In this document: positions 21,041 through 55,378 of the stretch, piece after piece | Numbering within the stretch: position 1 is the first letter of the stretch | How the letters are laid out: every line of letters begins with the position of its first letter | Notes under the pieces: generated by a model | What the model saw: only the letters and a program-made list of their open reading frames with translations | What the model was told of the DNA's origin: nothing | Databases searched by the model: none | Program-made: the position numbers and the translations under genes | DNA from: Prosopocoilus inquinatus | Taxonomy: Eukaryota > Arthropoda > Insecta > Coleoptera > Lucanidae | Length of the DNA: 64,000 bases | Reading direction: 5' to 3' | Assembly: GCA_036172665.1 (NCBI GenBank) | Contig: CM069871.1 | Location: forward strand, 1,860,001-1,924,000

Positions 21041-21140
21041 TTCAATGAATGAAACTTAATAATCAAACAAGTGAATGCAGAATAAATTAGATTAAAGAAA
21101 AGGAACATCAAACATTCTTATTTGGTGAAGGATGAGTGAA

Positions 21141-21230
21141 TTAGTTCGCTGCATGTCCCTCCGTATAGCTATTTCGGCCCTAATTAGGACCTCATCAGCA
21201 GAAAAGTACCTCGAGGAACTTCACTGCAAT
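21141..21230 (-). ncRNA. hammerhead ribozyme, type I, copy 1 (core consensus intact)
   Basis: Read on the minus strand: CTGATGA (21192-21198), stem II GGTCC/GGGCC closed by TAATTA, GAAA (21172-21175), then TAGCTATA and predicted cleavage between 21164 and 21163 (triplet AUA, allowed by the NUH rule). Inner stem I pairs CGGAG with the bases just before the core using two G-U pairs. An outer AGTTC/GAACT helix follows. Stem III carries U-A where copy 5 carries C-G, a compensatory change. Confidence 0.85.
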
Positions 21231-21585
21231 CCGATCGTCTCGCCTGATTTACGCGGAATTGAAGGCAATAGCTTCAGGTGCGCCATCGCGCGGCCGGAGC
21301 TTTCTCCTTACACCGGTATGCGGAGGAGTTTCTCACGCTATTCTTCTGCTGGTGAGGTACCAATTACGGTTGAAATACCTTGCAACGACTTTAATAAATA
21401 CCTAGCGCACAGCAGCATTGATGGTATTCGTTATTTTTCGCAAAGTGCAAGGTCAAATCTCCGTCCACGCACCTTAAGTAAGTTGCAATGAACGAATGAA
21501 GCAAATACGAATTATGAATGCAGAATAAATTAAATTAAGGGAAAAAAAACAATCAAACATTCTTATTTTGTGAAGAATTAATGAC

Positions 21586-21675
21586 TTACTTCGCTGCGAG
21601 CCCCTCCGTGTAGCTATTTCGGCCTTAATTAGCACCTCATCAAAAGAAAGGTAGCTCGAGAAACTTCGTTGCAAT
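21586..21675 (-). ncRNA. hammerhead ribozyme copy 2 (core damaged)
   Basis: Same layout as copy 1, but the conserved CTGATGA reads TTGATGA and the base before the cleavage nucleotide is C instead of U (ACA triplet). Stem II has mismatches. Predicted inactive. Confidence 0.75.
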
Positions 21676-22030
21676 CCGATCGACTCGTCTGATTTACGCG
21701 TAATTGAAGGAAATAGCTTAAGGTGCGCCATCGCGCGGCCGCAGCTTTCTCTTTACACCGGAATGCGGAGGAGTTTCTCAAGCTATTCTTCTGCTGGTGA
21801 GGTACCAATTAGGGTTGAAATAGCTTCCAGCAAGTTTAAAAAATGCCTAGCGCACAGCAACTTCGATGTTATTCGTTATTTCTCGCAAAGTGCAAGGTCA
21901 AATCTTCGTCCGCGCACCTTAAGTAAGTTGCAATCAACGAGTAAAGCAAATCCGAATTACTAATGCAGAATAAATTAGGTTATGGGAAAAAAAACAATAA
22001 AACATTCTTATTTGGTGAAGAATGAATGAC

Positions 22031-22120
22031 TTAGTTCGCTGCGAGCCTCTCCGTGTAGCTATTTCGGTCCTAATTAGGACCTCATCACAAGAAGGGCAGC
22101 GCGAGAACCTTCGCTGCAAT
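22031..22120 (-). ncRNA. hammerhead ribozyme copy 3 (core damaged)
   Basis: Stem II is a perfect 8 bp palindrome (GGTCCTAA/TTAGGACC), but the core reads GTGATGA and the cleavage triplet is ACA. Outer stem I can pair GCTGC with GCAGC and GTTC with GAAC. Predicted inactive at the usual site. Confidence 0.75.
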
Positions 22121-22470
22121 CCGATCGTCTCGCCTGATTTACGGGTAATCGAAGGCAATAGCTTAAGGTACGCCATCCCGCGGCCGGAGCCTTCTCTTTA
22201 TGCCGGAATGCGGAGGAGATTCCCACACTATTCTTCTGCTGATGAGGTACCAATTAGGGTTGAAGTAGCTTGCAGCAAGTTTAAAAAATGCCTAGCGCAC
22301 AGCAACATCGATGTTATTCGTTATTTTTCGCAAAGTGCAAAGTCACCCGTCCGCGCACCTTAAGTAAATTCCAATGAACGAATAAAGCAAATCCGAATTA
22401 CAAATGCAGAATAAATTAGGTTAAGGGAAAAAAACAGTCAAACATTCTTATTTGGTGAAGAATGAATCAC

Positions 22471-22560
22471 TTAGTTCGCTGTGAGCCTCTCCGTGTAGCT
22501 ATTTCGGCCCTAAATTGGGACTCATCAGCAGATGAGTAACTCGAGAAACTTCGTTGCAAT
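22471..22560 (-). ncRNA. hammerhead ribozyme copy 4 (core intact, cleavage triplet ACA)
   Basis: CTGATGA and GAAA are both intact and inner stem I pairs. The triplet at the site is ACA, so U16.1 is replaced by C. Activity is doubtful. Confidence 0.75.
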
Positions 22561-22649
22561 CCGATCGGCTCGCCTGATTTACGCGTTATTGAAGACGATA
22601 GCTTAAGGTGCGCCATCGCGCGGCCGGAGCCTTGTCCTTACACCGAAAT

Positions 22650-22730
22650 GCGGAGAAGTTTCTCACGTTATTCTTCTGCTGATGAGGTGCCAATTAGGGC
22701 TGAAATAGTTTGCAGCAAGTTAAAAAAAAA
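22650..22730 (+). other. hammerhead-like core on the opposite strand (inverted duplicate in each unit)
   Basis: On the plus strand, CTGATGA (22679-22685), a 16 nt stem-II-like segment and GAAA (22702-22705) recur. Homologues lie at 21349, 21796 and 22237, with CTGGTGA in some. Downstream of GAAA the sequence no longer gives a proper cleavage triplet or stem I. I read it as a decayed inverted copy of the ribozyme region. Confidence 0.6.
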
Positions 22731-22954
22731 TGCCTAACGCGCTGTTGTGTCCGCGTTGATCGCTTTGTGCGTGATAGCTTATGGCACAGCAACATTGATG
22801 TTATTCGTTATTTTTCGCAAAGTACAAGGTGAAGGTCAAGGTCCGTCCGCACACCGTAAGTTGCAATGAACGAATAAAGCAAATCCGAATTAAGAATGCA
22901 GAATAAATTAGATTAAGGAAAAGAAAGCAATCAAACATTCTTATTTGGTGAAGA

Positions 22955-23045
22955 ATGAATGAATTAGTTTGCTGCAAATCCCTCCGTACAGCTGTTTCGG
23001 GCCCAATTGGGACCTCATCAGCAGAAGAGCAAAGTGCAAGGTCAA
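22955..23045 (-). ncRNA. hammerhead ribozyme copy 5 (core consensus intact, rebuilt outer stem I)
   Basis: Minus strand: CTGATGA, stem II GGTCCCAA/TTGGGCCC with one mismatch, GAAA, CAGCTGTA, with cleavage predicted between 22987 and 22986 (triplet GUA). Inner stem I is CTTCTG/CGGAGG. An internal deletion brought a new segment next to the core, yet TTTGCT still pairs with AGCAAA to form an outer helix. This is the best-preserved copy in the array. Confidence 0.85.
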
Positions 23046-23090
23046 ATCTCCGTCCGCGCATCTTAAGTCGCAATGAACGAACTAAGCGAA

Positions 23091-52446: not shown

Positions 52447-52710
52447 TAATCAAGAGATGGCGCTCTGAATAATTCTTGTCATGCCGTTATGATTCTCAAT
52501 TTTGAAACGTAATTTTGAAACTAAAATTATTGTGCAGGCGATGCAAATCGTTTTCGATTGCAGTGAAAACTTTGAGCAGCTGTTTCAGCCCTACTTGAGG
52601 CTTCTCCTGCAATGTCAGGTCAAAAAGCGATCGTAGGATGTCGCTGTTTTATCTCTAGCTACTAACTTGGTCAAGAGATGGCGTTTCGAAAGATTCTCGC
52701 CACGCGCGCC
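52447..52710. repeat. direct repeats flanking a decayed hammerhead element
   Basis: TCAAGAGATGGCG begins at ~52449 and again at ~52671, each followed by similar GAA-ATTCT sequence. They bracket the decayed element at ~52530-52661. Confidence 0.6.
52530..52661 (-). pseudogene. decayed copy of the hammerhead-bearing element
   Basis: This copy shares with 54859-55090 the segment GATTGCAGTGAAAAC, the stem III block GCTGTTTCAGCCC (plus strand) and the 3' part CAATGTCAGGTCAAAAAGCG through GCTGTTTTATCT. The CTGATGA half of the ribozyme core is missing, so it cannot be a hammerhead now. Confidence 0.75.
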
Positions 52711-54121: not shown

Positions 54122-54798
54122 CCGGGTGCCTCAATAAGCGTGGCGATCGGAAATAAATGTATTTACAGAAAACTGTAATACCTACCTACAGCTTCGTGAG
54201 AAAAAAAAAATATGATTAATGTGAGGAAGAAGAATAAGTCAGATATTAAATAATGAAAGCAACGAACAGTAAACCTCAATCGGACAAGGTTACTTGTGGT
54301 CTCTTTCTCGATATGAGCAAAGCTTTCGATAGCATCAATCACTTCATAATCCTTGAAAAATTAGAAATTTACGAGGGGCCTCCCAAAAAAATCCTTTCTA
54401 ACAAATCTGTCAGACAAATCTAAAAAAATCTACTAGAATCCCTTCTGTCAAACAAATCTTAAAATTGGTGGAAGAATTTTGTCTGCTTACCAAACTGTAG
54501 AAAAGGGCGCCCCCCCGAGGCTCAGTACTCGGGCCGCTTTCGTTTACGATTTATATAAATGACCTCCAAAGTGTTCTTATCGTAACATAGTTAGTTCTAT
54601 TTGACTCGTCACAAATCATAAGCTTCAGTAAGAACGAAGAGATTATAACCCTAACTCATAACTCCATTGAGAACCTCACATGGTCAGATGGTTCATAATG
54701 AATGATCTAAAAATTAAATAAAAATAATAATAATTGTATATAGGTATTACAATTTTCTGTATACCCCCTGGTCGCCCCGCTCTTATTGGAACACCCGG
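54122..54798. mobile_element. 677 bp Tc1/mariner-like element containing a LINE fragment
   Basis: The left end CCGGGTGCCTCAATAAG matches the inverted right end CCGGGTGTTCCAATAAG. The similarity runs on to ACAGAAAA-TGTAATACCT, making TIRs of ~70 bp. TA flanks both sides. No transposase; the interior is the LINE fragment at 54271-54720. A second right end of the same family lies at 58261-58318. Confidence 0.8.
54271..54720 (+). pseudogene. LINE reverse-transcriptase fragment (frame-disrupted)
   Basis: Plus strand, frame 54271: FLDMSKAFDSINH is the non-LTR retrotransposon RT motif A, with the catalytic Asp in LDMSKAFD. About 190 bp later, in a separate segment, GAPPRGSVLGPLSFTIYIND is motif B. 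The segment between is damaged and motif C (YADD type) is missing. The fragment ends near a (TAA)n-like tail at ~54718-54735, as in I/Jockey-type elements. A related fragment lies at 55130-55375. Clade not assignable from this much. Confidence 0.85.
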
Positions 54799-54887
54799 TA
54801 CATGTCTCTTGTCTGTTGATTGATATCTAAGATTGTAACTGCGTTATTTTAATTATGATAAAATTTTGTTCCAAATCGTGTTTGATT

Positions 54888-54976
54888 GCAGTGAAAACCT
54901 CGAGCAGCCTCTGTGCAGCTATTTCAGCCCTCTTTGGGGTTTCATCAGCAGAGACGTAGCTCGACATTCCCACTGC
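54888..54976 (-). ncRNA. hammerhead ribozyme, type I, with long stem I (cleavage triplet GCA)
   Basis: Minus strand: CTGATGA (54942-54948), stem II of ~16 nt, GAAA (54922-54925), TAGCTGCA, cleavage position between 54914 and 54913. Stem I is extensive: GTCTCTG/CAGAGGC, then TCGAG/CTCGA, then GCAGTG/CACTGC at the outer end, with GGAA opposite TTTT. This near-continuous pairing around the conserved core is hard to explain by chance. The base before the cleavage nucleotide is C, not U, so ordinary activity is doubtful. Confidence 0.85.
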
Positions 54977-55028
54977 AGACCAAAAACGACTTGTCCAATT
55001 TATTCGCAATTACTATGTAATAGTGATG

Positions 55029-55090
55029 AACAGATAAAACAGCAATGTCAGGTCAAAAAGCGATCGTAGGATGTCGCTGTTTTATCTGTT
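55029..55090. repeat. perfect 15 bp hairpin at the element's end
   Basis: AACAGATAAAACAGC (55029-55043) is the exact reverse complement of GCTGTTTTATCTGTT (55076-55090), around a 32 nt loop that is conserved in the decayed copy at ~52610-52650. Confidence 0.9.
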
Positions 55091-55129: not shown

Positions 55130-55378
55130 TACTTACTTGGGCGTCCCCCAAGGCTCAATACTCGGACCGCTTTCGTTTACGATTTACACAAATGACCTCC
55201 CAAAGTGTTCTGATCATAAAACTCTGATTCGTCACAAATCATAAGCTTCAGTAAGAAGGACGACACTATAACCCTAATTCATAACTCACATTGAGAACCT
55301 CACATGGTCAGATGGTTCATAATGAATGAACTCAAATGAAATCATAACCGTATCTAATAATAATAATAATAATTGCAT
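55130..55378 (+). pseudogene. second LINE fragment with (TAA)n tail
   Basis: GVPQGSILGPLSFTIYTNDL (about 55140-55199) is RT motif B, closely related to the copy at ~54500. Downstream sequence (CCTCACATGGTCAGATGG) matches that copy, and the fragment ends in a (TAA)n tail at ~55356-55372. 5'-truncated and out of frame. Confidence 0.85.

Follow-up and report, generated by a model that had tools for sequence, protein, structure and literature searches.

In the accessible parts of Cervera and de la Pena 2020 (PMC7229834), the non-LTR (long terminal repeat) retrozymes of animals are described as tandem repeats that carry a type I hammerhead ribozyme, have target duplications and reach high copy number. 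The same source names Penelope-like elements (PLEs) as a strong helper candidate for these retrozymes and postulates that circular templates are primed. We examined a 64,000-nucleotide (nt) stretch of the genome of the lucanid beetle Prosopocoilus inquinatus (CM069871.1, positions 1,860,001 to 1,924,000, hereafter the window; part of contig C3 in a 650-Mb assembly of 173 contigs; window GC 35%), in which a tandem array of a 445-bp unit contains hammerhead motifs, and compared it with a dispersed 312-bp retrozyme family and a PLE of the same genome. The array appears to be a decayed satellite that would descend from an old hammerhead retrozyme insertion. Of wider interest is the way in which the retrozyme family and the PLE are inserted, which looks like the footprint of priming at two sites by two strands: a circular retrozyme RNA is probably primed at two sites by two nicked target strands, with the array descending from such an insertion.

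Penelope/Poseidon-type elements, as presented in the available portions of PMC11167929 and PMC3846280, combine reverse transcriptase (RT) and GIY-YIG endonuclease in one frame with a repeated flank, head-to-head copies and a 30-40-nt 'tail' that may be present on one inverted flank, features that recur in the PLE described here. An Anolis PLE cuts and extends both target strands in vitro, using two internal start sites with the tail between them and preferring 5'-ATT-3' (Frangieh 2024, PMC11167929), and head-to-head copies have been attributed to self-priming on the antisense template (Arkhipova 2013, PMC3846280). The portions of these papers that were consulted contain no statement that each insertion uses both starts, one per target strand, and the two-site, two-strand reading was likewise not found in the literature searched, subscription journals and preprints being outside its scope. 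The hammerhead satellites of newt, schistosome and cave cricket, named in the accessible text of PMC7229834, are like the window array in being tandem satellites with hammerhead motifs; the array differs from them in that most of its units appear dead and units 1-4 contain a second hammerhead on the opposite strand.

A dispersed 312-bp hammerhead retrozyme with two fixed outer ends

The related dispersed retrozyme, whose family would be younger than the insertion behind the array, has a unit of 312 nt with a GC content of 44.2%, in keeping with a retrozyme (approximately 170-400 nt, type I hammerhead, GC below 50%), and its hammerhead layout was found with R1, a local covariance model made from 16 hammerheads of the same genome (the 5 array units and 11 dispersed copies). 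Genome-wide, a 29-nt hammerhead pattern gave 23,934 matches with up to 3 mismatches, and patterns near two positions of the unit, sites A and B, gave 20,112 and 22,388 matches, respectively, with up to 2 mismatches; the reversed control gave 0 in each case. The type I hammerhead, target duplications, high copy number, 44% GC and tandem dimers in part of the copies are all shared with the retrozymes of PMC7229834, to the extent that its text was available. In contrast to those tandem repeats, for which the word 'inverted' is absent from the main text of that paper, tandem units are present in only part of the 312-bp family, and its main form is an inverted pair of an antisense and a sense segment with two fixed outer ends. 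In the predicted RNA of one genomic 312-nt unit, the hammerhead region would tip a stem of approximately 44 pairs (z -8.7).

The family consists of dispersed copies with target duplications, which were read at 62 loci on contig C1 (22 of the first 30, 8 overlapping ones being dropped, and 40 further regions) containing 93 of the 100 hammerhead-pattern places listed. The 75 insertions at these loci comprise 54 antisense-then-sense pairs ('-+'), 10 '+', 5 '-', 3 '--+' and one each of '-+-+', '++' and '-+-', with no simple '+-' insertion among them. Among the matches listed, hammerhead-pattern neighbours within 1.5 kb were 21 '-+', 6 '--', 2 '++' and 0 '+-', and site-B pattern neighbours within 800 bp were 24 '-+', 6 '++', 4 '--' and 1 '+-' (at 756 bp). 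Outer ends of the '-+' type are seen in 58 insertions, 53 of which combine one end at site A with one at site B, the remainder being 2 BB, 1 AA and 2 unclassed; the partner of a given A end is B in 53 cases and A in 1. Counted from the ribozyme cut, site A has its median at nt 61 and site B at nt 200, and 114 of the 116 outer ends fall in two bins, defined after inspection of the data, which together cover 24% of the unit.

Exact target repeats of at least 9 bp border 46 of 53 insertions, as against 5.2% of 2000 mismatched flank pairs, and among the 43 insertions with at least 10 bp the repeat is 12 bp long in 24 and 13 bp in 12. These duplications are 85% AT (66% in the flanks), and the bases just outside them are mostly G, T and T (32/86, 60/86 and 59/86, respectively). 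All 54 simple inner junctions are unique, and the aligned segments overlap at 39 of them, mostly by 2-8 nt, which would suit microhomology. The inner ends of the two arms look independent: they lie within 10 nt of each other in 6 of 54 insertions, with 3.6 expected under independence, and 4 of the 6 coincide exactly. Segments longer than the 312-nt unit account for 29 of 141, with 16 above 372 nt, 5 above 500 nt and the longest reaching 737 nt. The ribozyme cut site is crossed by 52 of 53 segments started at A and by 22 of 53 started at B; of the 106 inner ends, a single one coincides with this site. In the predicted circular fold, openness over 14-nt windows is greatest for those starting at nt 54-60 and 185-189. 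The anatomy of the family, its two fixed end sites and their pairing, the target duplications, the unique junctions and the segments of more than unit length are seen in the sequence itself.

Three side observations were made at the loci read. Weak R1 matches at L016:955-1011(+) and L016:9453-9509(-), of 27.2 and 30.8 bits, both lie within an inverted repeat of approximately 1.6 kb and possibly represent a third hammerhead family. Locus L013 (C5:39943000-39952999) is 99.85% identical over 9962 nt to L014 (C5:48357900-48367899), 8.4 Mb away; the two share the same retrozyme insertions and are either a recent segmental duplication or an assembly duplicate. At L012:1228-2415(+) an open frame of 396 amino acids (aa) looks by eye like a Tc1/mariner-type transposase.

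The insertion signature in a Penelope-like element

A search with the GIY-YIG profile (PF01541) gave 150 scored matches of 2232 candidates, all over the cut-off, and neighbours within 10 kb among these 150 listed matches were 47 '-+', 1 '--' and 0 '+-'. Locus L087 is a PLE insertion whose antisense arm carries an open frame of 788 aa; the 787-aa translation matches RVT_1 (5.1e-15) and GIY-YIG (9.5e-7), so that RT and endonuclease lie in one frame, and those relatives that carry a name are from arthropods: Tribolium (51% identity over 56%), Molorchus, Aedes and a springtail. The sense arm is identical to the antisense arm over 1847 nt, the repeated flank (pLTR) is identical over 187 nt between 156-342 and 2760-2946, and the outer ends differ by 41 nt, with a target duplication of 12 bp. 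In each of ten further PLE pairs a long end (243-245) is combined with a short one (203-207), and the duplications measure 12-16 bp; all 11 pairs read have one tailed and one untailed end. The long end fits the 'tail' of the Penelope papers. At the level of sequence, a PLE with an open 788-aa frame bears the same insertion signature as the retrozyme. By hand count, the PLE starts lie approximately 46 and 87 nt after the expected cut of a hammerhead-like motif seen by eye, and retrozyme site A lies approximately 50-61 nt after its own cut; the similarity of these distances is suggestive only. The PLE read need not be the actual helper, its target preference being similar to that of the retrozyme but weaker.

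Proposed mechanism of insertion

We propose that the cycle begins with transcription of a source copy containing two or more hammerheads head to tail, and that the hammerheads would release a 312-nt RNA, which may then close into a circle. A PLE protein, as the putative helper, would nick both strands of an AT-rich target approximately 12 bp apart, after which one 3' end would be extended on the RNA from site A and the other from site B. Since both complementary DNAs (cDNAs) would be antisense, one chromosome strand would read antisense then sense, with the RNA 3' sides outward. The two cDNAs would join inside at a variable point, and copying could continue beyond a second full turn of the circle. 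As for the array in the window, an inverted pair left by a relative would have diverged and subsequently been amplified in tandem as the 445-bp unit. Self-cleavage, RNA circularity, the PLE as helper and the descent of the array are what we infer here. In our reading each of the two PLE start sites is used by a different target strand. More generally, we lean slightly towards the view that Penelope-type integration is an obligatory two-site, two-strand target priming in which each strand has its own fixed RNA start, and that retrozyme circles use the same machine, being reverse-transcribed over repeated turns from two opposed sites, one on either side of the hammerhead stem. In the twin priming of LINE-1, both target strands prime on one RNA and produce an inverted part, as a minority event with a variable second start. 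Two-strand priming in the present families would, in contrast, be the main form and have two fixed starts.

Several observations weigh against this proposal. Isolated 60-nt hammerhead pieces (units 1 and 5 of the array and L011) are predicted to fold otherwise (z -0.55 to -1.50), with CAGC of stem III pairing with GCUG of the core; a three-pair stem III may need a dimer, as for the amphibian retrozymes mentioned in the abstract of PMC7229834. The common 312-nt hammerhead is missed by the Rfam type I model and gave only two HH9 matches (14.3-14.5 bits, E 4.8-5.4); a sibling copy in the same locus as the common variant reaches 36.3 bits in Rfam, over the cut-off. Single-stranded pieces make up 15 of the 75 insertions, and since the loci were picked by a pattern beside site A, BB insertions may be under-sampled, a choice of loci that does not favour B as the partner of A ends. 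The mapped A and B ends are moderately open in the predicted fold, 18% and 16% of windows being at least as open. As regards the PLE, neither R1 nor Rfam found a hammerhead in the copy read, which has only the by-eye motif in its flank; the bases outside its duplication resemble those of the retrozyme less sharply (T at +3 in 14/22, at +2 in 10/22); and a block of PLE-retrozyme similarity after the hammerhead (p 0.04) was set aside as too weak to use. Finally, in the available parts of PMC11167929, the PAc start sites in vitro are the same for top and bottom strands, and ribozyme mutants left insertion unchanged.

The 445-bp array and the dispersed copies in the window

Tandem Repeats Finder (TRF) places the array at 21073-22728 (period 445, 3.7 copies, 88% matches), and reading of the sequence extends it by a fifth, internally deleted unit to approximately 23090. 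Units 1-4 are pairwise 85.6-89.8% identical. At 445 bp and 43.5% GC the repeat lies within the size and GC bounds of a tandem retrozyme (150-450 bp, GC below 50%), but only 2 of its 5 hammerheads are intact. A type I hammerhead layout is present on the minus strand of each unit, in agreement with an earlier sequence-only reading of this DNA. The features below were scored by R1 and by a strict descriptor (core, stems I-III and NUH triplet); all five units are training members of R1.

21073..23090, no strand: tandem array of a 445-bp unit, 4 full and 1 internally deleted (TRF and sequence)
21151..21210, minus strand: hammerhead of unit 1, full core, triplet AUA, predicted cut 21164/21163 (R1 74.8 bits, training member; strict descriptor)
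21596..21655, minus strand: hammerhead-derived, unit 2, TTGATGA, A-C at 15.1-16.1, predicted dead (R1 61.9 bits, training)
22041..22100, minus strand: hammerhead-derived, unit 3, GTGATGA, A-C at 15.1-16.1, predicted dead (R1 63.7 bits, training)
22481..22540, minus strand: hammerhead-derived, unit 4, core kept, A-C at 15.1-16.1, predicted dead (R1 61.9 bits, training)
22974..23033, minus strand: hammerhead of unit 5, full core, triplet GUA, stem II with a U-C mismatch, predicted cut 22987/22986 (Rfam 18.2 bits; R1 70.0 bits, training; strict descriptor)

The sequence-only reading had placed CTGATGA in all five units; it is kept in three (1, 4 and 5), units 2 and 3 having lost C3. The A15.1-U16.1 pair is kept only in units 1 and 5; units 2, 3 and 4 have C at 16.1 and therefore no NUH triplet. 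Hence only units 1 and 5 show the complete type I core (CUGANGA ... GAAA, three stems, NUH), as had been claimed: unit 1 combines CTGATGA with a stem II of six pairs, GAA, stem III ATA/TAT and the triplet AUA, and unit 5 has CTGATGA, one U-C mismatch in stem II, stem III ACA/TGT and the triplet GUA. The change in stem III from C-G in unit 5 to U-A in unit 1 was also correctly seen, and the cuts it had predicted in these two units agree with ours, being spaced 22987-21164 = 1823 nt apart, so that the 1.82-kb piece would follow from the sequence. Working 445-nt monomers were not borne out, U16.1 being lost in three of five units.

A second, decayed hammerhead in the opposite orientation, which that reading overlooked, is present in units 1-4. 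It is the other arm of an inverted repeat of 65-67 nt, with the arms 80 nt apart.

21337..21395, plus strand: decayed hammerhead copy, unit 1, CTGGTGA (R1 11.2 bits, E 0.48)
21782..21840, plus strand: decayed hammerhead copy, unit 2, CTGGTGA (inverted repeat; R1 30.2 bits)
22227..22285, plus strand: decayed hammerhead copy, unit 3, GAAG replacing GAAA (inverted repeat; R1 28.6 bits)
22667..22725, plus strand: decayed hammerhead copy, unit 4, core kept, stem III and triplet absent at the usual place (inverted repeat; R1 39.1 bits)
21612..21825, no strand: inverted pair of unit 2, arms 21612-21678 and 21759-21825 with 80 nt between, antisense then sense segment

The order of the pair, antisense then sense, is that of the dispersed retrozyme insertions. 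Given that the arms are 72-77% alike in units 1-4 and the units themselves 85.6-89.8%, amplification in tandem seems to postdate the formation of the inverted pair. The plus-strand copies were also considered as working ribozymes, in the manner of viroid-like RNAs with activity in both polarities; this was dropped, their cores being changed or lacking a cleavable triplet at the usual place.

Kinship of the array with an animal-type retrozyme is indicated by its similarity to the 312-bp unit: unit 1 at 21158-21261(-) matches nt 214-318 with 69% identity (E 1e-10), and 21778-21830(+) matches nt 262-315 with 74% identity (E 1.7e-5). The earlier assignment to a retrozyme-like family holds in this sense; the array is not itself the retrozyme, the mobile unit being the dispersed one of 312 nt, mostly in antisense-plus-sense pairs. 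A genome-wide count with a pattern specific to the 445-bp unit, the kind of check that reading had suggested, gave 6 matches, 5 of them in the array and 1 on C1. The sequence-only reading thus saw a real thing and had its kinship right; what it regarded as a working retrozyme is, however, a decayed satellite.

Strong R1 matches in the window are confined to the array at 21-23 kb and two old dispersed copies:

54860..55090, no strand: old dispersed copy, antisense 54860-55043 (outer end near site A) and sense 55039-55090 (near site B), 88.6% and 88.5% identity
54901-54960, minus strand: hammerhead of this copy (R1 65.5 bits, not training)
52542..52652, no strand: second old dispersed copy, antisense 52542-52611 and sense 52601-52652, 76.5% and 88.5% identity
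52562-52621, minus strand: decayed hammerhead of the second copy (R1 32.6 bits, not training)

By-eye inspection of target duplications at these two copies was unconvincing. The first is flanked by stretches 54512-54712 and 55145-55336, repeats 90-96% alike, which on visual inspection resemble part of a non-LTR reverse transcriptase. The sole match outside the window to the 445-bp-unit pattern, at C1:71630703-71630728(-), is exact across 26 nt. The window as a whole (1-64000) is packed with tandem arrays, giving 87 TRF rows.

Support for the hammerhead anatomy

At the gathering score, Rfam gave no match in the whole window; Hammerhead_1 (RF00163) scored 18.2 bits on unit 5, below the gathering score of 34 (E 0.71 over 4227 families in 2.4 kb). 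Other weak Rfam matches in evalue mode, to snoRNA and lncRNA models, were taken as chance. The strict descriptor matched only units 1 and 5 in the window and gave 1 match in total across 150 first-order Markov windows of 64 kb; units 1 and 5 share descent, and hence both descriptor matches count as one event. The covariance check that the sequence-only reading called for therefore came out divided: the stock Rfam model found nothing at gathering, and the genome-specific R1 matched the array units with 61.9-74.8 bits, which is no independent proof since these units are among its training members. Independent support for the hammerhead anatomy is provided by the two non-training R1 matches in the dispersed window copies and by a genome search with the Rfam type I model, in which 7 of 8 matches at E up to 0.001 were over the cut-off (74 of 83,220 candidates scored). 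In the alignment of the 16 hammerheads, 88.8% of cells are paired, as against 30.4-45.1% when slid, and 16 cells are changed on both sides, as against 7.2 in shuffles (0 of 500 shuffles as high). Two other measures were not above shuffles: 4 pairs show changes on both sides, a number reached in 310 of 500 shuffles, and there are 13 pair types, a number reached in 500 of 500.

Alternative explanations

The array could itself be a working retrozyme satellite, whose minus-strand transcripts self-cleave to 445-nt or 1.82-kb RNAs that circularise. The retained core and NUH triplet of units 1 and 5 would agree with this, as would a size and GC content (43.5%) within the animal retrozyme range given in the available text of PMC7229834; it is nevertheless very improbable in view of the loss of U16.1 in three of five units, with C3 also lost in two of them, the 6 unit-specific matches genome-wide of which 5 are here, and the Rfam score below cut-off. 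A different possibility, which we consider unlikely, is that the inverted pair of the array arose by local inversion or duplication rather than by two-strand insertion, the hammerhead alone being common with the retrozyme. The homology to the retrozyme spans approximately 105 nt in one arm and 53 nt in its counterpart, and neither the ends A and B nor a target duplication were detected in the array, as would suit such a rearrangement; however, order and orientation match the dispersed insertions, and the same order is seen in the window copies at 52.5 and 54.9 kb.

For the 312-bp family, fixed outer ends and a constant duplication length, which DNA transposons also have, might suggest a transposase-mobilised DNA element (fold-back or deletion derivative) in which A and B are the fixed ends and the internal deletions differ from copy to copy. 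Deletion derivatives that had been amplified would be expected to have junctions in common, whereas 54 of 54 are unique, and this reading was dropped for want of shared ones; moreover, the segments, which reach 737 nt, are tandem and permuted copies of a 312-nt circle, ends A and B are not mutual inverted repeats, and the same order is seen in PLEs of the same genome, all of which makes a DNA element scarcely credible. Doubtful, yet to be taken seriously, is the view that the template was a linear multimeric transcript instead of a ribozyme-made circle, with the hammerhead dispensable for insertion. The ribozyme-mutant result on the Anolis PLE mentioned above and the position of the common hammerhead off the Rfam type I model speak for it; against it, two-unit head-to-tail sources are a minority (the 16 of 141 segments above 372 nt) while 29 of 141 exceed one unit, and the hammerhead fold keeps paired changes, with the reservation that the two other measures did not exceed shuffles. 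Head-to-head copies might also form by self-priming (snap-back) on the antisense template instead of both target strands acting as primers. A 2013 paper (PMC3846280) proposed this for rotifer PLEs, and identical inner coordinates on both arms in 4 of 54 retrozyme insertions (L018, L056, L073 and L085) could be so explained. We consider snap-back improbable: inner ends within 10 nt are hardly in excess of independence (6 of 54 versus 3.6), and it leaves unexplained the different outer end sites in 53 of 58 retrozyme insertions and 11 of 11 PLE pairs.

Implications for retrozymes and Penelope-like elements

Priming of a retrozyme RNA circle at two sites by two target strands would leave testable footprints, which the retrozyme copies carry: two fixed starts, the use of both target strands as primers, and copying that continues beyond the ribozyme cut site and goes round the unit more than once. 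These copies suggest one mechanism for the Penelope head-to-head form and its 'tail', and if this is true, one rule would cover head-to-head copies, the optional tail and the target duplication. The genome of this beetle would then keep approximately twenty thousand footprints of circular RNA templates, from which satellites like the window array can grow; the array would illustrate one possible fate of such an insertion, namely a local satellite in which either strand bears hammerheads.

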